This document shows, one piece after another, positions 3 to 36,713 of a DNA stretch of 64,000 nucleotides. Within the stretch, counting starts at the first letter, position 1. Each line of letters begins with the position of its first letter. The notes beneath the pieces were generated by a model. That model was not told the origin of the DNA. It did no database searches and saw only the letters and a list, made by a program, of their open reading frames with translations. The translations under genes and the position numbers were made by a program. This DNA comes from Thiothrix fructosivorans (GTDB lineage Bacteria > Pseudomonadota > Gammaproteobacteria > Thiotrichales > Thiotrichaceae): the NCBI RefSeq assembly GCF_017349355.1, contig NZ_JAFMPM010000006.1, positions 496,001 through 560,000 on the forward strand, written 5' to 3'.

Positions 3-590
3 GTGGAAGCCACGCTTGGGGTATTCAACCCGCTGGATGGTCAAGAATCCAATGGCAAATCCACGGGTGACGGCGGACAACCGGGCTTGCACGGCAAAAT
101 CAGCTACGACGTGGACAATGGCAATGGAGTCAAAACCCACTTATCTGCCAGCGCCCTGAACCAGAAAGTCAAACTCTCCAACGGTCAGAAGCCTAGCATC
201 CAAGGCACGGATGTCTTTGCACGCGTAGACATCAACAAAGCCAGCCTTGCGGGCGGCTACTTCCAAGGCGAAGGCATGGATACGCTGGGCATTGGCGGTA
301 TCGTGTTCCCCGGCTTCAGCAGCACTACGGGTGAAGCGGAAAAAGCCAAAGGTTACATGGCTCAAGCATCTTACAAGCTCAACAAAACCAAGCTGGGCGT
401 GAACTACGCGCAAAGCAAGCAAACCAACCTCACCAAAGTCAAAAACGACAAGGTAACACTGGGCGCTTACCACAGCTTGACCGATAACCTCACGCTAGTT
501 GGGGAAGTATCGCAACAGAAAAGTGAGCTGGACGGCAAAGGTACGGATAAATCCGGCACGGTCGCCGTGGGCGCAATGTTCTCCTTCTAA
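3..590 (+). CDS. Gram-negative porin, C-terminal part (5' end outside window)
   Basis: The reading frame is open from the window edge, so only the last 195 or so residues are visible. It has alternating polar/apolar strands typical of an outer-membrane beta-barrel (segments such as KGYMAQASYKLNKTKLGVNY and KVTLGAYHSLTDNLTLVGEV) and ends in a terminal phenylalanine (VGAMFSF), the BAM recognition signature of trimeric porins. It would be a diffusion channel in the outer membrane. Substrate specificity cannot be told from this fragment. It lies directly upstream of the PQQ operon. PQQ dehydrogenases act in the periplasm, so co-location may be functional, but that is inference. Confidence 0.8.
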   Translation: MEATLGVFNPLDGQESNGKSTGDGGQPGLHGKISYDVDNGNGVKTHLSASALNQKVKLSNGQKPSIQGTDVFARVDINKASLAGGYFQGEGMDTLGIGGIVFPGFSSTTGEAEKAKGYMAQASYKLNKTKLGVNYAQSKQTNLTKVKNDKVTLGAYHSLTDNLTLVGEVSQQKSELDGKGTDKSGTVAVGAMFSF

Positions 591-2779: not shown

Positions 2780-3044
2780 CACGCTCAACAGCAAGCCGGG
2801 AATTGCGCTCGGTTACCGCTTGCAATGGGAAGAAGTGCAGCAATGCCATGTGCTGCTCTACCCCGAAGGCATGGTGCAATTGAACGACACCGCCGCCGCG
2901 ATTCTGGCGTTTTGCGACGGCAAACGTAGCGTGCTTGGCGTGATTGCCGCGCTGGAAAACGAATACGAGGCGGAAGACTTACGCGAAGACGTGGTAGCGT
3001 TCCTGCACGAAGCAGTCGATCGTGGGTGGGTGCGTTATGGCTAA
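2772..3044 (+). CDS. pqqD: PqqD, PqqA-binding chaperone
   Basis: 90 residues beginning [20 protein letters not shown]. PqqD binds the PqqA peptide and presents it to the radical SAM enzyme PqqE. The small winged-helix-like fold with [19 protein letters not shown] and [17 protein letters not shown] matches the family. I chose the ATG at 2772 because it gives the family length, although the frame is open further upstream inside pqqC. It overlaps pqqC by 8 nt and pqqE by 8 nt. Confidence 0.94.
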
Positions 3045-4137
3045 ACCACCTCCACCGCTGTGGCTGCTCGCGGAAGTTACCCATTCCTGCCCGTTGCAAT
3101 GCCCGTATTGCAGCAACCCACTCGATTTGATCCCCAAAAAAGACGAACTCGATACCGAAAACTGGTTGCGCGTCTTGCATGAAGCACGGCAAATTGGCGC
3201 GGCACAACTCGGCTTTTCCGGCGGCGAACCCTTGGTGCGCAAGGATTTGGAAGTGCTGATCGGTGCAGCTCGCAAGCTGGGCTTTTACAGCAACCTGATC
3301 ACCTCCGGTATTGGCATGGATGCGGAACGGGTGGAACGTTTCCGCGAACTGGGGCTGGATCATATTCAGGTCAGCTTCCAAGCCGACGATGCCGTGTTGA
3401 ACGATTATCTGGCAGGCACGCATTCGTTCCAGCACAAGCTCGACATGGCGCGGGCAGTGAAGGCGAACGGCTACCCGATGGTGCTGTGTTTCGTGATTCA
3501 TCGGCAAAATATCGGGCAAGTCCGCCAAATGCTTGATTTAGCCGCCGAATTGCAAGCCGATTACGTGGAACTGGCGACGGCGCAATACGAAGGCTGGGCG
3601 TTGCTCAACCGCGATCACCTGTTGCCCACGCAAGCGCAAGTACGCGAAGCCGAACGCATTGCCCACGAATATCAGGCCAAGCTCAAAGGCAAGATGCGCA
3701 TTTACTACGTGGTGCCGGATTATTACGAAAACCGCCCGAAACCGTGCGTCGGCGGCTGGGGACGGGTGTTTCTGGCAGTTGCGCCGGATGGGTTGGCGTT
3801 GCCGTGCCATTCTGCACGCGGCTTGCCGGGGCTGGAATTGCACAATGTGCGCGAGCGCAGCATTGAGTGGATTTGGAACGAATCGCCCGGTTTCAACCAT
3901 TTCCGAGGCGAAGGCTGGATGAAAGAGCCTTGCCGCACGTGTGATGAGCGCGAAAAGGATTTCGGCGGCTGCCATTGTCAGGCGTTCAAGCTGACTGGCG
4001 ACCCGACCAATGCTGACCCGACTTGCGCGAAATCACCGCACCATCATTTGGTAGAAAAAGCGATTGATACCAGCGAGTTGGGCATCATTACCAGCAAACC
4101 TATCGTGTTCCGGCAACGTAATAAAAATTCAAAATAA
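3037..4137 (+). CDS. pqqE: PqqE, radical SAM enzyme that cross-links PqqA
   Basis: 366 residues from the ATG at 3037 ([18 protein letters not shown]). A GTG 15 nt upstream is possible but less likely. Cys18, Cys22 and Cys25 form the radical SAM CxxxCxxC motif. The C-terminal third is a SPASM domain with its cysteines (PCVGGWG, LPCHSARG, CRTCDE, GGCHCQ, PTCAK) for auxiliary Fe-S clusters. The enzyme makes the Glu-Tyr carbon-carbon bond in PqqA. Past the SPASM domain the tail (ELGIITSKPIVFRQRNKNSK) runs into AT-rich DNA, which may have replaced the original 3' end. A degraded second copy of the region 3889-4069 lies at 6182-6362. Confidence 0.95.
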   Translation: MAKPPPPLWLLAEVTHSCPLQCPYCSNPLDLIPKKDELDTENWLRVLHEARQIGAAQLGFSGGEPLVRKDLEVLIGAARKLGFYSNLITSGIGMDAERVERFRELGLDHIQVSFQADDAVLNDYLAGTHSFQHKLDMARAVKANGYPMVLCFVIHRQNIGQVRQMLDLAAELQADYVELATAQYEGWALLNRDHLLPTQAQVREAERIAHEYQAKLKGKMRIYYVVPDYYENRPKPCVGGWGRVFLAVAPDGLALPCHSARGLPGLELHNVRERSIEWIWNESPGFNHFRGEGWMKEPCRTCDEREKDFGGCHCQAFKLTGDPTNADPTCAKSPHHHLVEKAIDTSELGIITSKPIVFRQRNKNSK

Positions 4138-4154
4138 CAATTTTTACTCATTAT

Positions 4155-4185
4155 AAACCTACTTTTTTAAAGGATCAGTAGGTTT
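4155..4185. terminator. Hairpin between pqqE and the convergent lipoprotein gene
   Basis: AAACCTACT at 4155-4163 pairs perfectly with AGTAGGTTT at 4177-4185 around a 13-nt loop. It lies between convergent genes and contains the stop codon of the minus-strand lipoprotein gene. It may terminate both transcripts, although neither side carries a long T-run. Confidence 0.45.
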
Positions 4186-4419
4186 ATTGCATACAAGTTC
4201 TTGAAAACAACCACAGGCATCCATTTTACTAATTATCTCACCATCTGGACAAAAACTAGGTGCAACGGGTGGTATTTCATGCCTACAACTTGGAGAAATA
4301 GACTGACATGAGGATGGCAACGGTAAAGAATTTGTGTGAGATGATGAAATCATTGGCTCATAACAAGCTGTTAATAAACTTGCTAGCATCAAAAAAATAA
4401 GAACAATCTTATATTTCAT
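4159..4419 (-). CDS. Small cysteine-rich lipoprotein, unknown function
   Basis: 86 residues. The N-terminus is a lipoprotein signal (MKYKIVLIFLMLASLLTAC) with lipobox LLTAC. The mature part is short and cysteine-rich (SCQSISPSCRH, then FCPDGEIISKMDACGCFQEL and VC), which suggests a compact disulfide-bonded domain. The C-x-D-G...D-x-C-G-C pattern faintly recalls small secreted inhibitor folds, but I do not recognise a family. It lies 78 nt downstream of the neprosin-family gene in the same orientation and inside the AT-rich island, so the two may be co-transcribed. An inhibitor or partner role would be speculation. Confidence 0.65.
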   Translation of the reverse strand: MKYKIVLIFLMLASLLTACYEPMISSSHTNSLPLPSSCQSISPSCRHEIPPVAPSFCPDGEIISKMDACGCFQELVCNKPTDPLKK

Positions 4420-4446
4420 CTTGATATTTCCTCATAAAGTTAGTCA

Positions 4447-4480
4447 AACAGGCATTCTAATGCAAGTGAGAATACCTGTT
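4447..4480 (-). terminator. Stem-loop after the neprosin-family gene
   Basis: AACAGGCATTCT at 4447-4458 pairs with AGAATACCTGTT at 4469-4480 (12 bp with one G-U pair, 10-nt loop). It lies just past the stop of the 4498-5811 gene and could attenuate read-through into the small lipoprotein gene. No T-run follows. Confidence 0.4.
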
Positions 4481-4497
4481 TGTTAGAATTAGAACAT

Positions 4498-5811
4498 CTA
4501 TTGGCTCTTACATTGGCTATTATAACCAGAACCACCAAAATAAAAATAAGTACCCCATGAACCAGTACTAGGTGTAACGGTAATATCATAACACTTAGCA
4601 TTTGTTCGTGATACTGTAAGTTTTGACTTTGTCCAAACATTAGATGTATTAAGGTAACGAATATTACGGGTATACGCAGCTTTTTTATAACCTAGTTGAG
4701 GAAATGCACCGCTGCCCATATCAGTACTTGTGTGAGCTTTATCAACAGCATCAAGAATTTCCCCTCCCCAATCAACACTACTTGCTTGATTCTTCAAGCC
4801 ATTACTGTCAAACAACTTGCTTGGGTAATAACCAACCCACATATCACCATACTTTAACCACCAATTTCCATTGACACTATCTCTTTGCCATCTGAGAGTT
4901 ATTTCATACTGATTACCATTTGTAGAGCTATAATTAGAAAACTTACCTCCTAACACAATTGCATTATTAGTTTGAACAAATTTGCCACAATCATGATTGT
5001 AACACCCACCAGTACCATAATTATCTGGTGTAAAATAAATAAATAATCGCGAATTATAATCACCGTATTTTAACTTGTAATTTTGCCATCCTGCTTCAAG
5101 TGTTTCTAAATATTTACCAGTTCCTCTAGTTACCCACGTTTGAGATAAAGAAAATTCTCCTGCAGTCTCGGTATAAGGGCTCCAAAGATTAAAAATTGCT
5201 TCCTGCCCCCAATTACTTATATTTTGATAGGCATGAGCATACTTATGTTTATATGAGGATGCTGCTGAAGAAGACGCATTGCTAGAAGATATTAACTCAC
5301 TCGGTACTTTCTGGAGAAACTCATTGATACTGTTAAAACGTTTTATTTGTTCAACAGTTACCATTAAAATAGGAATAGAATTTTTTGGGCAAGACATCTC
5401 GTTTCCCATTGGATCAAGCCCACCAGTGAGCACAAAAGCTGGCTCTTTTCCATTTGAGGTACTACTGGTATTTGTAGACAACGAATTTACTTTCATATCA
5501 GAATCATCAATAGGATCATCAGGTGGTAAGTCTAACGCAGCCATCGGAGCGGATGATAAACCCACTGTTTTTGATGAACGTAATGCAGGCTGTGAATAAA
5601 TATTTACACAACTGACGGTTTCACCATTTTTAATAAAACGATGAACAACTTGTGTTTCCGTATAAAGATCTATCACATATTGTTGCATTGCTTTAGTTTT
5701 TACAGCATCTGCATTTGCCGAAGTATTTGTTTGTGCATCATTTGCTAATACATTGCCCGTAGCACAAGAGAAACCAATAAACAATATAAGCTTCAAATAA
5801 TCCGCTTTCAT
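4498..5811 (-). CDS. Neprosin-family secreted glutamic peptidase
   Basis: 437 residues with a signal peptide (MKADYLKLILFIGFSCATGN, then VLAND). Residues about 40-80 resemble the neprosin activation peptide (NGETVSCVNIYSQPALR; plant members have a DCVxIxxQPA motif). Residues about 195-437 match the neprosin (DUF239) catalytic domain: LEAGWQ, RLFIYFTPDNYGTGGCYN, CGKFVQT, GNWWLKYGD, GYYPSKLF, DWGGEI, HTSTDMGSGAFP. The two glutamates that are catalytic in characterised neprosin correspond to Glu239 and Glu351 here, spaced as in the family. It is probably an exported proline-cleaving zymogen. Codon and base composition are far more AT-rich than the neighbours, a sign of transfer. Confidence 0.85.
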   Translation of the reverse strand: MKADYLKLILFIGFSCATGNVLANDAQTNTSANADAVKTKAMQQYVIDLYTETQVVHRFIKNGETVSCVNIYSQPALRSSKTVGLSSAPMAALDLPPDDPIDDSDMKVNSLSTNTSSTSNGKEPAFVLTGGLDPMGNEMSCPKNSIPILMVTVEQIKRFNSINEFLQKVPSELISSSNASSSAASSYKHKYAHAYQNISNWGQEAIFNLWSPYTETAGEFSLSQTWVTRGTGKYLETLEAGWQNYKLKYGDYNSRLFIYFTPDNYGTGGCYNHDCGKFVQTNNAIVLGGKFSNYSSTNGNQYEITLRWQRDSVNGNWWLKYGDMWVGYYPSKLFDSNGLKNQASSVDWGGEILDAVDKAHTSTDMGSGAFPQLGYKKAAYTRNIRYLNTSNVWTKSKLTVSRTNAKCYDITVTPSTGSWGTYFYFGGSGYNSQCKSQ

Positions 5812-6144
5812 AAATAAAACCTCAATTAAAAATCAGAGCGATTAACAATAAAATATAATATTCTTCTTATTGAAAAAATACCCCATCATGCCATGAATAA
5901 CTAAAATGACATGCTGACTATTAAAACTGACCTATAAGCAGGATTACATATTGACTTTATAAGGCTTGCACACTAACAAACCATATTCCTTCTTGATTAA
6001 CAAGAGTTACTCTAAATTTACAAAAACATTTATAATCTTTATATATAATAATACATTTAATTACAATGTAATTAATTAGTACATTTTATTAAAAATAATC
6101 TAATAATTGGTATACTTCAGGTTTCTGTCTTTAAGCGGAACGGA
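5812..6144. other. AT-rich gene-free stretch upstream of the neprosin-family gene
   Basis: About 330 nt of very AT-rich DNA. It must hold the promoter of the minus-strand neprosin-family gene. I see runs such as TTTATATATAATAATACATT but no convincing coding frame, tRNA or attachment site. The right edge abuts the pqqC/pqqE pseudogene. Confidence 0.6.
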
Positions 6145-6385
6145 ATCAATAACGCAGACTTGCAATATTTCCGCACCGGATGGTTTCAACCATTTCCGGT
6201 GCGAAGGCGGGATGAAAGAGCCGTGCCGCACGTGTGATGAGCGTGAAAAGGATTTCGGCGGCTACCATTCTCAGGCGTTCAAGCTGACCGGCGACCCGAC
6301 CAATGCTGACCCGACTTGCGCGAAATCACCGCACCATCATTTGGTGGAAAAAGCGATTGATAAATCTAAAAGTAAATTACTGTAA
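6145..6385 (+). pseudogene. Decayed pqqC-pqqE chimera
   Basis: Positions 6145-6174 encode [10 protein letters not shown], matching Pqq[11 protein letters not shown] (2543-2572). Positions 6182-6362 then match pqqE 3889-4069 without indels. The two parts are in different frames, so the piece is non-functional. SPASM cysteines are lost (GGCHCQ became GGYHSQ). The tail diverges after VEKAID. This is a remnant of a second pqq copy with everything between pqqC and late pqqE deleted, and it marks the right edge of the AT-rich island. Confidence 0.85.
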
Positions 6386-6415
6386 CAATCCTTACGGTAA
6401 TCGCTTACTTGAAAC

Positions 6416-7085: not shown

Positions 7086-7310
7086 TTAAACCTTACTTCG
7101 GCGAGCCTTTTGAACCGCTGCCTGCGCTTGCAAGGCTTGCGACCGCCCAATTTCGCCGCCATCGGGAGTGACGGCGCTATTCAACGCCATATTTTGCGGC
7201 TTAAATGGCACAACAGCTAAGCCGCGCCGTTTGAAGACACGGCACAGCCCCACCACTAACGTGCTTTTGCCAGCATCCGAAGTGCATCCCTGCACCCTCA
7301 AAGTTGGCAT
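7086..7310 (-). pseudogene. cobQ (cobyric acid synthase) N-terminal fragment
   Basis: The first 65 or so residues are clearly Cob[21 protein letters not shown] (P-loop of the dethiobiotin-synthetase-like domain), [12 protein letters not shown] and [15 protein letters not shown]. The frame then diverges and stops at 74 residues, whereas CobQ is normally about 480. Its ATG overlaps the btuM stop (TGATG), so it was once translationally coupled to btuM. It cannot be functional. Confidence 0.85.
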
Positions 7311-7887: not shown

Positions 7888-9720
7888 TTATTTCGGTGCG
7901 TATTTAACCGTCACCAAACCATTAACACCGTCTTGATTATAGCCGTTGTTGGTTTGGTAATCCTTGCCCAGTACGTTGCCGAGTTTTGCACCCACTGTCC
8001 AGTCTTTCGACACACGGTAATCAGCACGTACATCCAACGTGCCATAACCCGCTAGCTTTTTGCTCTCGGTATTGGCGCTATCGGTGTAACGCTGGCTCTC
8101 GCCACGCACGGTTGCACCAACGCGGAATTTACCCAGCTCACGGTCAATATCGACGTTAGCGTGCTGTTCGGGACGGTAAATCAACTGCTTGCCAGCATCC
8201 ACACCGCTGCGGTTTTCTGGCTGTTGCAAAGTGGCATTGCCGTTCACTTCCCACCCCGCCAATTGCGTCGTGGCACTGAGTTCCAGCCCTTGAATCCGTG
8301 CCTTGTCGGTTTGACTGACTTGGTAATCCGGTGGCGGGTAGCTAATCAGGTTGTTGATTTCATTGCTGAAAACGTTGGCTGACCATTGCGCCTTGCCCCC
8401 CGCTAACTTGCCGGAGATACCGAGTTCGGCATTTTGCGCGGTTTCTGGCGTAAGCGTAGGATCGCCGCTGAACGGGTAGTACAAATCATTGAAATTCGGG
8501 GCTTTGAACGCCGTGCCATACGACCCTGTTACGCGCATTCCGTTGGCAAGGTCACGTCCGATGGCAACAGCGCCCGTGTTGTGCCCACCAAACTGTTCGT
8601 TGTCGTCGTGGCGGGCAGCTATATCCACACGGTTTTTGCCAAAATCGGTCTGGTAATTGGCAAACACTCCAGTATTATCGCGGGAAGTCCGGTCGTAAAC
8701 ACTATCGCTGGTCACTTGGTCATTCTGCCAATCCAGTCCAACAGTAGCAGAACCGTTTTCCCCCACGCCCACATCCGCCTGCACCGCAGCACTGTTCCGC
8801 CGCGTATTGTAGGTGCGGAATGCGGTCAGCGGCTGCCCATTGAGGTAATTGTCAGATTCATCACGCGCCTGCCCAAGTTGCGCCTTGAGCAATACCTTAT
8901 CACTCAGTGCGTGCGTCACTTTCCCGCTCACCACACTTTGGGTGAAATGGGTTTCATTGTTGAAACTGCTATCAAACTGGCTATCGCCAGCAGCGTGCAC
9001 GGCGCTGATTTCCGCCTCCGTGCCATTGGCAAAGCGATGTCCCGCCCTCAACGCAACGCTGTCACGGGCATAACCATCCGCATCCGGCTCTTGGTTATTG
9101 GCAGTGGCATTAAAACCGTCAGTCTGTTCCGTACCCGCATTGAGGTTATACCACGTTGCCTCAGTGCCACCCGCCAGATTGACGTTGGCTTTTTGGGTAT
9201 TGTGGCTACCGACACTCACGCTGACTTCCGGCTGGAAACCGTTACCGCCTTTGCGGGTGAAAATCTGAATCACGCCACCTATCGCTTCCGAACCGTACAA
9301 GCTGGAACGCGGGCCACGCACCACTTCAATGCGTTCCACCTGATCCAGCGGTAAGTCTTCAAACGCGATGCTGCCCGTGGTGGCAGAACCGACTTTGACA
9401 CCATCAACCAGCACCAAAACGTGGCTGGAATTCGTGCCACGCATGAATACCGACGTGGTTTTGCCCGCACCACCGCTGTTACTAAGGGTAATGCCGGGTA
9501 AACGGCGTAATACATCCGGCAAACTCGTCGCCTGATACTGCTCGATGTCTTGGCGGGTAATAATACTGACGGGGGCAAGGGTGGTATCGACACTGCGTGC
9601 TTTGCGGTCAGCAGTCACCACGATGTCATCGAGGGTAGTAGCGTCTTCCGCCAATACAAGGGGGGATCCGAGGCAAATAGCAACAGTGCCACACACGACG
9701 GCAAACGGGAATGATTTCAT
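7888..9720 (-). CDS. btuB: BtuB, TonB-dependent vitamin B12 receptor
   Basis: 610 residues from the ATG at 9720 (MKSFPFAVVCGTVAICLGSP signal peptide). A longer frame starting at a TTG at 9765 runs back into the riboswitch leader and is rejected. A TonB box (DDIVVTAD) is followed by the plug domain (LPDVLRRLPGI, VLVLVDGVKVGS, VERIEVVRGPRSSLYGSEAI) and a 22-strand barrel ending in YAPK. The product imports cobalamin across the outer membrane with TonB-ExbBD energy. It lies downstream of a cobalamin riboswitch and 17 nt before btuM, so one B12-repressed operon is likely. Confidence 0.92.
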   Translation of the reverse strand: MKSFPFAVVCGTVAICLGSPLVLAEDATTLDDIVVTADRKARSVDTTLAPVSIITRQDIEQYQATSLPDVLRRLPGITLSNSGGAGKTTSVFMRGTNSSHVLVLVDGVKVGSATTGSIAFEDLPLDQVERIEVVRGPRSSLYGSEAIGGVIQIFTRKGGNGFQPEVSVSVGSHNTQKANVNLAGGTEATWYNLNAGTEQTDGFNATANNQEPDADGYARDSVALRAGHRFANGTEAEISAVHAAGDSQFDSSFNNETHFTQSVVSGKVTHALSDKVLLKAQLGQARDESDNYLNGQPLTAFRTYNTRRNSAAVQADVGVGENGSATVGLDWQNDQVTSDSVYDRTSRDNTGVFANYQTDFGKNRVDIAARHDDNEQFGGHNTGAVAIGRDLANGMRVTGSYGTAFKAPNFNDLYYPFSGDPTLTPETAQNAELGISGKLAGGKAQWSANVFSNEINNLISYPPPDYQVSQTDKARIQGLELSATTQLAGWEVNGNATLQQPENRSGVDAGKQLIYRPEQHANVDIDRELGKFRVGATVRGESQRYTDSANTESKKLAGYGTLDVRADYRVSKDWTVGAKLGNVLGKDYQTNNGYNQDGVNGLVTVKYAPK

Positions 9721-9784
9721 AGGAGGTATGTCCGTAACGGTGCGCCCATCGCGCACGTTGACCAAACGACCGGGGTAAGGTCGT

Positions 9785-11749: not shown

Positions 11750-12707
11750 TCATCGAGAACCGGACGAATACACCGAAATGCACGCGCCACTGACATTCTC
11801 TCCAAAGGCTAACACCGCCCGTCCGGCGGCTAAAATATTGCGAGCAGCGTTTACGTCACGGTCGTGGATTACCTTGCATTCAGGGCATTCCCAGACACGT
11901 ACTGCCAATAGCAAACGATCAACTACACATCCACAACCACTGCACCGCTTACTGGAGGGGAAAAATCTGCCGATTTCGACATACGTTCTGCCCGCCCAGT
12001 TGGCTTTGTACGCAAGCTGGCGGGTAAATTCACCCCAGCTTGCATCGGCAATGTGTTTGGCTAATGTGGGGTTTTTAATCATGTTTTTCACGGCGAGATT
12101 TTCAGCGCAAACCACTTGGTTCTCGTTAATCAGTTTGCGGGACAGCTTGTGCAAGTTGTCCGAACGGCAATCGGCGATTTTCGCGTGAATACGGGCAACC
12201 TTGCGTTTGGCTTTCAGCCGGTTCTTGCTGCCGAGTTTCTTCTTGGCAAGACGACGTTGGTATTTCGCAAGTTTAGCCGCGTATTCTGCGGTATGGCGGG
12301 GATTGCCGGATTTAAAACCGTCAGAAGTGACGAACAAATCCTTGATGCCCACGTCGATGCCCACCTTTTTATCGGTAACGGGCAACAACGTGGAGTCGAA
12401 TTCACACAGGCAAGACACGAAGTAGCGCCCTGCATGATCTTTGGAAACGGTGATGGTGGTCGGGTCAGACGGAAGCGACTGACTCCATTTAATCGCCAAT
12501 GGCTGAGCACACTTCGCCAGCTTCAATTCACCGTTCTTAAAGGTGAACGCGCGGTAAGTGAATTCGGCTGATTGGCGGTGCTTTTTGGATTTAAAGACAG
12601 GATATTTCGCCCGACCTTCAAAGAAGTTTTTGAACGCGGTTTGCTGATTTCGTAAGCATTGTTGCGTCGGGATAAAACCTGAACTTGTAGGCACGTTTCG
12701 TTTGCAT
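11750..12707 (-). pseudogene. TnpB (IS200/IS605 family), N-terminally deleted
   Basis: The C-terminal 290 or so residues are intact TnpB: QCLRNQQTAFKNFFEGRAKY, RuvC-I Asp in VGIDVGIKDL, RuvC-II Glu in VCAENLAVKN, zinc finger CSGC...CPEC, RuvC-III Asp in HDRDVNAARNIL. The genuine start (ATG at 12707, MQTKRAYKFRFYPD) is in another frame. About 60 codons of the WED/REC region are missing and a frameshift separates the two parts. An internal TTG/ATG start could still give a 314-residue protein, but without the N-terminal nucleic-acid-binding part RNA-guided cleavage is unlikely. Confidence 0.85.
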
Positions 12708-33210: not shown

Positions 33211-34362
33211 ATGATCATCAGCCACAAAATCCGCCTTGCCCCTAACAACCAGCAAGCCACGTACTTGGCGAAAGCCGCCGGTACGGCGCGTTTTGCTTAC
33301 AACTGGGCATTGGCGGAATGGCAAACCCAATACGCGGCATGGCAAGACGACAACACCCAGCCCAAACCCAACCAAATGAGCTTGCGCCGTCAATTGAATG
33401 CCATCAAGCGCGAGCAATTCCCGTGGATGCTGGAAGTCACCAAAAATGCCCCACAAATGGCGATCATCCAACTCGGTGCAGCGTTCAAGAACTTCTTTGC
33501 TGGGCGTGCCCAGTACCCGCGATTCAAAAAGAAAAGCAAAAGCCGCGACAGTTTCACCCTCACCAACGACCAATTTAGCATCGACGCTTGCCGCATCCGC
33601 ATTCCCAACCTTGGGTTAGTGCGAATGCGGGAAACGTTACGCTTTTCCGGCAAAATCCTCTCTGCCACGGTTTCCCGTACCGCTGACCAGTGGTTCGCCA
33701 GTATCACCGTGGATACGCAAGACTATCACCACCTGCCGCCTACCGAAAACCAAGGTACGGTGGGGGTGGATTTGGGCGTATCCGCACTGGCAACCCTGTC
33801 AACGGGGGAAAAAGTGGCAGGGGCGAAGCCGCATAAAGCCTTGCTTTCCCGTCTAAGACGACTATCTCGCCGCCTGTCCCGCAAGATCAAAGGCAGTGCC
33901 AACCGCCACAAAGCGCAACAGAAGCTGGCAAAACTTCACGCACGTATTGCCAACATCCGCCAAGACAGTTTGCACCAACTCACCACCGACCTAACCCGTC
34001 GTTTCCACACCATCGGTATTGAAGATTTAAACGTGTCCGGCATGGTCAAGAACCGCCATTTATCCCGTGCGATCAGTGACATGGGCTTTTTTGAGTTCCG
34101 CCGCCAACTGGAATACAAGGCGGGGATGCGCGGAGCAGTAGTCGTGGTGGCTGATCGGTTTTTTGCCTCCAGCAAAACCTGTTTTGCCCCCGGTTGTGGG
34201 TATAAAGTGGACAAGCTGCCGCTGTCGATACGTGAATGGACTTGCCCCGTTTGCGGTGCAGTTCATGATCGTGACATAAACGCCACCAAGAATTTAGAAG
34301 GATATGCCGTGAGTTACACGGTGTCTGCCTGTGGAGGGTGCGACCTGATGCCTCTTAAGTGA
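33211..34362 (+). CDS. tnpB: TnpB RNA-guided nuclease family protein, exon 1 plus read-through
   Basis: The unspliced frame gives 383 residues. It has the complete TnpB N-terminus (MIISHKIRLAPNNQQATYLA), RuvC-I Asp in VGVDLGVSAL, RuvC-II Glu in IGIEDLNVSGM, a zinc finger (CFAPGC...CPVC) and RuvC-III Asp in AVHDRDINATKNL. The true coding sequence stops being TnpB at 34337, where the intron begins. The last eight codons (DLMPLK end) are intron sequence. Splicing to 36714-36798 gives a 403-residue protein ending in the family tail CGGDGSGLGRKPKTKPA. TnpB is the ancestor of Cas12 and uses an omegaRNA from the 3' end of its own element. Confidence 0.92.
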   Translation: MIISHKIRLAPNNQQATYLAKAAGTARFAYNWALAEWQTQYAAWQDDNTQPKPNQMSLRRQLNAIKREQFPWMLEVTKNAPQMAIIQLGAAFKNFFAGRAQYPRFKKKSKSRDSFTLTNDQFSIDACRIRIPNLGLVRMRETLRFSGKILSATVSRTADQWFASITVDTQDYHHLPPTENQGTVGVDLGVSALATLSTGEKVAGAKPHKALLSRLRRLSRRLSRKIKGSANRHKAQQKLAKLHARIANIRQDSLHQLTTDLTRRFHTIGIEDLNVSGMVKNRHLSRAISDMGFFEFRRQLEYKAGMRGAVVVVADRFFASSKTCFAPGCGYKVDKLPLSIREWTCPVCGAVHDRDINATKNLEGYAVSYTVSACGGCDLMPLK

Positions 34363-36713
34363 TTGTTTCATTTGTCAAAAGCAAAAGAGAAACCTGGTGT
34401 TTCGCCACCAGTAGCCTACTGACCCATGCGGTGCTGGTAACGGTGCGGTGTGAAGCGGTCAGGACAAAGTAACCTGCCATAAGGCGGCGTAGGTTTCGTG
34501 AGGAAACACGCTATCTGTAAGCATCAATGCGGATGGGAGCTAGGCTTGATGGTATGACTAACGAAAGTGAACTGCTGATAAACATCGTAAAGCAGAACGA
34601 GCTAAAGATGCTGACAAGCTTGAGCCAAAAGGCAAATGGCTGGTTAATCCCCTCCTCCATGGGATTACGCGGACACAACAGCCATCGGTGAACAGGCAGG
34701 GTCTACCCCATCATTGTCACTCAAGTGGAACAGGATAAGCCCGTATCCCCGCCAGCAATGGCAAGCCGACCGTAAGGGAAGCCGATGGGAATGCGGGTAT
34801 GGGATGCCAGAAAAAGCGAATGCCACTCTGTAATGGGGTGGACAGGGGTTGAAACATCACCCTGCCCAAAAGGGTGCAGACTTCTGGCGGGTCTCTCTTT
34901 GCAGGAGAGTTTGTAGGACTTTTACAGGAGGTTGGACAAATGAACGAAGCGCAAGCCAAGTGTGCCACCCCCGATGGCGTGGTGGATTGGCACGGAATTG
35001 ACCGGGCAAAAGCACATCAGGCCACCCAAAAGCTGCAAGTGCGTATTGCAAAGGCAATCCGGGAAGGGAAGCACCGCAAGGCAAAATCCTTGCAATGGCT
35101 ACTGACCCACTCGTTTTACGCCAAATGCATGGCGGTCAAACGTGTCACGGAAAACAGCGGCAAAAAGACTGCCGGGGTGGACAATGAAACTTGGGACACT
35201 CCACCGGCCAAAGCCAAAGCAATAGTGGGTCTCAAACGCAGGGGCTACAAGCCCCAGCCACTGAGACGGGTATATATTCCCAAAGCAAACGGCAAGCAAC
35301 GCCCGTTAGGCATCCCGACGATGAAAGACAGGGCTATGCAAGCACTTCACTTGCTTGCCCTTGAACCCATCTCGGAAACCACAGCCGACCCGAACTCATA
35401 CGGGTTCAGGCCAAAACGGGGTTGCAAGGACGCAGCGGAACAGATATTCATCAGCATGGCGCAAAAAACGCAGGCAAAGTGGGTATTGGAGGCAGACATC
35501 GCCGGGTGCTTTGATAACATTAGCCATGAATGGTTGCTCGCCAACATCCCTACGGATACGGCGATACTCAGGAAATGGCTGAAGGCAGGGTTCGTGTGGA
35601 AAGGGGTGCGCTCCGATACGGAAGCAGGCACTCCACAGGGCGGTATCATATCCCCCGTACTGGCAAACATGGCACTGGACGGATTGGCGGGTAAACTGGC
35701 TAAAGCCTTCCCAAAAATCACTGGACGTGGCAGGGCGACCAAGGTCAATTATATCCGATATGCCGATGACTTCATCATCACGGGCACAAGCCCGGAAGTG
35801 CTGGAAGAAGCCAAAACCATCACTGAACGGTTTCTGGAGGCAAGGGGACTAATCCTCTCACCGGAAAAGACCAAGGTGGTGAACATCTCAGAAGGTTTCG
35901 ACTTTCTGGGCTGGAATTTCCGCAAGTACAACGGGAAGATGATGATCAAACCTGCCAAGAAGAACGTTAAAAACTTCTTGGCAGGCATCAGGCAACTGAT
36001 AGACAGTAATAAGACCGCCACACAGGAAAACCTGATCCGCCTCCTCAACCCCAAAATACGGGGATGGACGGAGTACCACAAAAACCAAGTGGCAAAGGAA
36101 ACATTTTCCGATGTTGATCATGCCATCTGGAAAAAGCTATGGAAATGGGCAAGACGGCGACACCCCAACAAACCCAAAATGTGGGTCAAGGCTAAGTATT
36201 GGCCTCACCACAATGGGTGTAACTGGACGTTTAGGGTAAAGGTGCTGGACAGGAAAGGGAATGGGGTGTGGCTTGACCTGTTCAAGGCATCCTCTGTTCC
36301 CATTGTCCGGCATGTCAAGATTAAGGCAGATGCGAACCCCTATGACCCGGCGCAGGAAGAATACTTTGAGGAGCGGTTTCAACGCCACTTCAAGGAGGAA
36401 GCCCACGGCGCTAGGATCAAATACCTCTGGCACTCACAGGACGGCAAGTGTACCGCTTGTGGGCAAAACCTGACCAAGCAAACAGGGTGGCACGTCCACC
36501 ATGTTATATGGCGGGTAAAAGGGGGTACGGATGACTCGCGGAACTTGGTCTTAATGCACCCGGACTGTCACCGACAATTACACAGCCGTGTAAACCGTGG
36601 GTTGCCGACCACCCTGAAAAGTGGCTGAAGAGAGGCTTGAGCCGTATGTGGTGAAAATCACAAGTACGGTTCTTAGGGGAGGATGGTGCAGTAATGTACT
36701 GTTCTTACCCGAC
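34338..36713 (+). mobile_element. Group II intron with LtrA-type ORF
   Basis: The 5' end GTGCGACC fits the GUGYG consensus. At the 3' end domain V is visible as GAGCCGTATGTGGTGAAAAT followed by CACAAGTACGGTTC, then a domain VI hairpin (GATGGTGCAGTAATGTACTG) and the terminal CCCGAC. Positions 34338-34939 are ribozyme domains I-IV with no other gene. The length is 2376 nt. Removal joins TGTGGAGG to GGACGGCTCTGG and restores the tnpB frame, which supports both boundaries. It should be both a self-splicing ribozyme and a retroelement. Confidence 0.93.
34940..36628 (+). CDS. ltrA: Group II intron reverse transcriptase/maturase with HNH endonuclease
   Basis: 562 residues from the ATG at 34940, which has an excellent AGGAGGT site; the longer frame from 34874 lacks one. 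Reverse transcriptase motifs include VYIPKANGKQRPLGIPTMKD, ADIAGCFDNISHEWLL, GTPQGGIISPVLANMAL and YADD at residues 274-277. The maturase X domain follows (LLNPKIRGWTEYHKNQ). A C-terminal HNH domain starts near residue 504 (CTACGQ, HVHHVIWRVKGGTDDSRNLV, HPDCHRQLH). All catalytic motifs are intact, so the intron is probably mobile. Confidence 0.95.
   Translation: MNEAQAKCATPDGVVDWHGIDRAKAHQATQKLQVRIAKAIREGKHRKAKSLQWLLTHSFYAKCMAVKRVTENSGKKTAGVDNETWDTPPAKAKAIVGLKRRGYKPQPLRRVYIPKANGKQRPLGIPTMKDRAMQALHLLALEPISETTADPNSYGFRPKRGCKDAAEQIFISMAQKTQAKWVLEADIAGCFDNISHEWLLANIPTDTAILRKWLKAGFVWKGVRSDTEAGTPQGGIISPVLANMALDGLAGKLAKAFPKITGRGRATKVNYIRYADDFIITGTSPEVLEEAKTITERFLEARGLILSPEKTKVVNISEGFDFLGWNFRKYNGKMMIKPAKKNVKNFLAGIRQLIDSNKTATQENLIRLLNPKIRGWTEYHKNQVAKETFSDVDHAIWKKLWKWARRRHPNKPKMWVKAKYWPHHNGCNWTFRVKVLDRKGNGVWLDLFKASSVPIVRHVKIKADANPYDPAQEEYFEERFQRHFKEEAHGARIKYLWHSQDGKCTACGQNLTKQTGWHVHHVIWRVKGGTDDSRNLVLMHPDCHRQLHSRVNRGLPTTLKSG

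Follow-up and report, generated by a model that had tools for sequence, protein, structure and literature searches.

Neprosin is the prey-digesting enzyme of pitcher plants and cuts proteins after proline. The protein of Nepenthes x ventrata, solved in PDB entries 7zu8, 7zva, 7zvb and 7zvc, is classified as an eelysin, a classification that a 2026 follow-up retains (PMC13269764). Its catalytic pair is E188/E297, and seven active-site residues, namely H134, Y136, Q173, W175, E188, Y214 and E297, have been mutated and tested, while maturation takes place at P128-S129 (PMC9343461). The described chain has three disulfides (C52-C98, C219-C224 and C358-C379). The family is characterised by Pro-X endopeptidase activity that is highest near pH 3 and by auto-activation at acid pH. 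The eqolisins (MEROPS G1, e.g., SCP-B) are also glutamic peptidases with a beta-sandwich fold, but differ from neprosin in having a Glu-Gln dyad and share 11% identity with it (PMC9343461). It has been proposed that the neprosin family derived from an eqolisin transferred to plants, and its orthologues are said to be restricted to plants (PMC9343461).

The window analysed here, a stretch of 64,000 nucleotides of the Thiothrix fructosivorans genome, contains a gene whose product matches almost the whole Pfam profile PF03080 (Neprosin; 217.9 bits, E 1.3e-64, profile positions 2-213/214, with a cut-off of 22 bits). When all solved structures were searched with this frame, the Nepenthes neprosin entries were recovered with E values of 1.4e-49 to 6.5e-46 (1.9e-49 for pro-neprosin, 7zu8), followed by chance matches only, and a profile built from bacterial relatives likewise retrieved neprosin entries only from the PDB; no eqolisin appeared as a sequence match among the searches with this protein. 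The first-pass annotation had proposed an exported protein of the neprosin family, and both proposals hold, the former through a putative Sec-type signal, MKADYLKLILFIGFSCATGNVLA, read off the sequence. On these matches, the gene, which is single-copy in the genome, encodes a full-length neprosin and is a fresh bacterial member of an already known family. The NCBI annotation "neprosin family prolyl endopeptidase" is already in use for bacterial proteins, and no description of a characterised bacterial neprosin was found in the literature searched. The features of the locus are collected in Table 1.

Table 1. Features of the neprosin locus of T. fructosivorans (positions refer to the window; residues to the encoded protein).
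Feature	Position	Strand	Remarks
Presumed pqqE, intact	3022-4137	plus	Left island edge; protein 97% identical to nearest congener
AT-rich island holding neprosin and lipoprotein genes	4138-6105		33.6% GC, lowest-GC part of the window
Small Cys-rich lipoprotein	4159-4419	minus	86 aa; lipobox LTAC; 78 bp downstream of neprosin gene
Spacer between lipoprotein and neprosin genes	4420-4500	minus	Stable 14-bp hairpin, z -3.6, no T run after it
Neprosin-family glutamic endopeptidase gene	4498-5811	minus	ATG start; 437 aa (437 codons), stop-free frame
Domains of the protein	Residues about 1-23/24; about 25-170; about 185-437		Signal peptide; activation peptide; catalytic domain
Codon of catalytic E351 (= neprosin E297)	4759-4761	minus	From alignment; counted from ORF start 5811
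Codon of catalytic E239 (= neprosin E188)	5095-5097	minus	From alignment; counted from ORF start 5811
Codons of predicted autolytic maturation site P170-S171	5299-5304	minus	By analogy with neprosin P128-S129
Partial, decayed second copy of pqqE 3' part	6182-6362	plus	181 bp; 95% identity to 3889-4069; right island edge

The catalytic domain is 41% identical to that of Nepenthes neprosin. Since the search output numbers the crystallised chain in the same way as PMC9343461, the residues described there can be transferred to the T. fructosivorans protein. The two glutamates that had been picked out as catalytic, E239 and E351, align with the neprosin pair and are unchanged throughout the aligned bacterial and plant sequences, and together with H189, Y191, Q224, W226 and Y265, the counterparts of H134, Y136, Q173, W175 and Y214, they make all seven tested active-site residues identical. 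The S1 subsite (L222, Q224, E239, F257 and Y259, for neprosin L171, Q173, E188, F206 and Y208) and the S3 subsite (F220, Q243 and Y245, for F169, Q192 and Y194) are unchanged, while in S3' neprosin E293 is replaced by D347; the S1 and S3 residues follow PMC9343461, where residue 206 is printed as Y and is F in the solved chain. Moreover, the six Cys residues needed for all three neprosin disulfides are present (C68, C141, C270, C275, C407 and C434). The putative proline specificity suggested earlier for this enzyme is well supported by these identical S1 and S3 pockets, and the protein is probably an active post-proline glutamic endopeptidase.

Structure prediction was performed twice from alignments of seven sequences, for the full-length protein and for the catalytic domain, and gave low mean pLDDT values of 37 and 47, respectively. 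In a Foldseek search with the second model, the five best matches were neprosin entries (E 7e-10 to 2e-8, TM about 0.41) and these were the sole matches with E < 0.001; the rmsd of 14-16 Å in these matches of a low-confidence model is too large to read the geometry of the glutamates. Nevertheless, because the protein shares about 40% identity with the solved enzyme and aligns with few gaps, it is very likely that E239 and E351 would face each other as in neprosin.

The protein probably has a zymogen architecture like that of Nepenthes neprosin, with a more divergent pro-part. The activation-peptide motif claimed in the first-pass annotation stands in part: the motifs GETVSCVNIYSQPAL and CPKNSIPI, with two Cys, are kept, but the HPxLxNH-like motif located after QPA/S in Nepenthes and in two gammaproteobacterial relatives (L021 and L046) is absent, and the score against PF14365 (Neprosin_AP; 37.4 bits, E 4.2e-9) lies slightly below the cut-off of 39.2 bits, which both relatives exceed (53.7 bits for L021 and 59.3 bits for L046). 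A genuine, though divergent, activation peptide is probably present. K157-R158-F159 aligns with the neprosin latency segment K118-Q119-F120, and the linker between the pro-part and the catalytic domain has one proline, P170, followed by Ser. Since P170 is the sole linker proline and Ser comes next, as in the P128-S129 site, we predict self-cleavage at P170/S171 by analogy. The charges of the two parts are reversed with respect to the plant enzyme: the catalytic domain has a pI of 8.9 and the pro-part of 4.9, versus 4.3 and 9.5 in the structural paper on Nepenthes neprosin (4.30 when the catalytic domain was recomputed), and among 14 catalytic domains this is the only one with a net positive charge. 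Thus, the pH-3 optimum is not to be assumed here, the acid pH expected beforehand becomes doubtful, and the pH switch may differ from that of the plant zymogen.

The closest relative found is a gammaproteobacterial protein (L021, from MAG Ch67, JABLXQ010000004.1) of the same architecture, 49% identical overall and 59% in the catalytic domain, which is near-neutral (pI 6.8); its gene lies in DNA of 57% GC among unrelated neighbours, with no adjoining Cys-rich lipoprotein. Two further gammaproteobacterial proteins, L046 (genome G067) and L070 (genome G1563), are 45-46% identical to the T. fructosivorans protein over the catalytic domain and, at 47-49%, are nearer to Nepenthes neprosin than it is, exceeding the 35-40% that the structural paper quotes for plant orthologues. 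L046 combines an acidic catalytic domain with a basic pro-part, as Nepenthes does. In L070, the pro-part (about 2205-2480) and the catalytic part (1474-2253, both minus) occupy different reading frames, and because they are out of frame and a second signal peptide is lacking, this looks more like a broken gene. A different arrangement is found in two other gammaproteobacterial loci that form one clade (support 97/97), where the activation-peptide and catalytic parts are neighbouring separate ORFs (L025, 4806-5402 and 5415-6230, plus; L069, about 2325-2951 and 1489-2328, minus), each with a signal-like N-terminus, and the catalytic part of L069 resembles a lipoprotein. Such an arrangement might point to a two-gene neprosin with a pro-part acting in trans, a frameshift being the alternative. 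More distant relatives, with the same architecture and 31-33% identity, are annotated as "neprosin family prolyl endopeptidase" on two Novosphingobium plasmids (NC_015579.1 and NZ_CP009295.1), where the next gene encodes a 1161-aa protein without a Pfam match. One of these plasmids is conjugative and carries its 31%-identical relative beside an IS21 element, which indicates that the family rides mobile DNA. Other bacterial relatives come from Gammaproteobacteria MAGs, Dyella, and MAGs of Anaerolineae, Rokubacteria and Actinomycetes.

The family is rare among bacteria. PF03080 was absent from all 15 congeners and from 20 other genomes of the same bacterial family. Wider draws, each counted without its central genome, gave one carrier among 368 genomes of the class and one among 250 from the phylum of locus L022, and none among 397 genomes of the phylum or 345 from the phylum of locus L026; of 43 genomes from the order of G067, 4 match, one of them with a fragment and one below the cut-off. 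In a tree of catalytic domains, the T. fructosivorans protein, L021, L046, L070 and Nepenthes fall on one side, separated from the other bacteria, including the Novosphingobium proteins, with a support of 100/99, and Nepenthes groups with L046 and L070 at 98/98; these values refer to the tree with two long branches left out and become 97/97 and 96/98 when both are included. Excluding Nepenthes from the four bacterial proteins costs 12.3 log units (p-AU 0.07), so that a bacteria-only group is disfavoured, short of formal rejection. Since Nepenthes is the sole plant sequence in the tree, this plant-type clade gives no direction of transfer between plants and gammaproteobacteria, and the plant origin implied by the first-pass annotation does not follow, as other bacteria carry the family too. 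It is possible, and we suggest it tentatively, that a neprosin gene passed between plants and gammaproteobacteria in either direction, instead of the family having the published eqolisin origin, in which the Glu-Glu dyad arose within plants. If true, the gene in the window would be a bacterial representative of the plant-type clade in which the charge of the zymogen is reversed.

The gene lies in an island of about 2 kb with 33.6% GC, versus 54.8% upstream and 51.8% in the window as a whole, and its GC3 is 0.235, compared with 0.648 for the adjoining gene, which, judging by its sequence, we take to be pqqE. The latter is conserved with its congeners nearly to its end. On the other side of the island, the decayed fragment differs from the intact pqqE at nine sites, at four of which the difference is silent and the fragment agrees with the nearest congener (G014), while the other five, two Cys codons among them, are private to the fragment. 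Because the fragment keeps the G014 state at four of the nine sites, the duplication seems to date from around the time at which this lineage and its nearest sampled congener separated, and a recent local duplication is disfavoured. Clearly, the island was inserted beside pqqE with partial duplication of this gene. The island showed no integrase, transposase or terminal repeat, a nucleotide search for a plasmid copy gave no match, and a viral origin was rejected, with no relatives of the gene in viral contigs or phage records. No donor was found. The foreign look of this AT-rich DNA and its acquisition by transfer, both suggested beforehand, agree with its composition, the lack of the family among the congeners and its patchy distribution; horizontal transfer fits a gene that is rare, scattered and sometimes plasmid-borne, and horizontal gain by the T. 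fructosivorans lineage, in preference to multiple losses elsewhere, is the best reading of distribution and composition.

Several other elements were observed in the window. Directly after the pqqE fragment, a palindromic repeat, AAATTACTGTAACAATCCTTACGGTAAT, occurs at 6374-6401, with near-identical copies in three congeners (L034 and L035, 1506-1528 in each; L036, 1502-1524), in two of them right at the start of the same type of ATPase-like gene. To the right of the island, a truncated CobQ/CobB-type ATPase of 74 aa (7086-7310), which may be left over from a cobalamin locus, lies near a TonB-receptor-like gene (7888-9765). Further away are two OrfB/TnpB-type genes (11750-12694 and 33211-34362) and a group II intron reverse transcriptase/maturase with an HNH domain (34874-36628).

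It could be argued that the neprosin gene is a passenger, transferred and readable but silent or inactive in its host. The strong mismatch in composition, the decaying pqqE fragment alongside, promoter-like sites that are no commoner at the locus than expected by chance, and the absence of the family from all congeners sampled would fit such a gene. Nevertheless, the frame has stayed intact over 437 codons while the flanking fragment decays, and the active-site, pocket and disulfide residues have all been kept despite the 5% divergence of the pqqE copies, which renders a silent passenger unlikely.

Another explanation is that an active neprosin has a specific job, either in processing surface proteins of its own cell or in attacking neighbours, with the adjacent lipoprotein serving as inhibitor, immunity protein or anchor. 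The small Cys-rich lipoprotein noted by the first-pass annotation is indeed there, on the same strand and in the same island as the neprosin gene, with six Cys besides that of the lipobox, and protease inhibitors are common among small, Cys-rich secreted proteins. However, Pfam and the PDB contain no relative of it, plasmids gave no meaningful match, its matches in 40 related genomes are weak and none is convincing, and its motif matched none of the other loci compared. A known inhibitor was rejected on these grounds. Since no relatives of the lipoprotein can be recognised, and since it was missing next to the neprosin homologues in the neighbourhoods read, a functional link with the enzyme is unsupported; moreover, a hairpin separates the two genes. 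A specific job of this kind is rather improbable. No RNA element or intrinsic terminator was found at the locus, and an attC site of an integron was dropped for the hairpin, as visual inspection showed no fitting core boxes. Finally, contamination of the assembly, to which an AT-rich insert unlike its surroundings might point, is highly improbable, given that the island sits within a contig of 1.94 Mb with pqqE sequence of this genus on both sides and that the closest neprosin homologue is also gammaproteobacterial.

The explanation that we very much favour on the sequence evidence is that of a horizontally gained member of the neprosin (eelysin) family that is secreted, activates itself and works as a post-proline endopeptidase. 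The gene would have arrived within the AT-rich insert adjoining pqqE, and its product would be exported via Sec as a zymogen that folds with the activation peptide over the active-site cleft. Other molecules of the same enzyme would then cut the linker after proline, most likely at V169-P170/S171, releasing a mature enzyme of about 30 kDa, in which E239 and E351 would act with a bridging water and with Q224, W226, H189, Y191 and Y265 outside the cytoplasm, cleaving proteins C-terminal to proline. From this we infer activity, proline specificity, auto-activation and a role in extracellular protein degradation for nutrition, while a digestive or competition role would be a guess.

What lifts the T. 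fructosivorans neprosin above routine interest is its place in the plant-type clade. Bacteria have proteins in which the active site is complete, certain of them 47-49% identical to Nepenthes neprosin, and these contradict the view that the family is restricted to plants (PMC9343461), and through such bacterial neprosins the origin of the Glu-Glu dyad becomes testable by phylogeny. Moreover, these homologues are possible post-proline proteases with other pH ranges, which could be of use in proteomics and gluten degradation.
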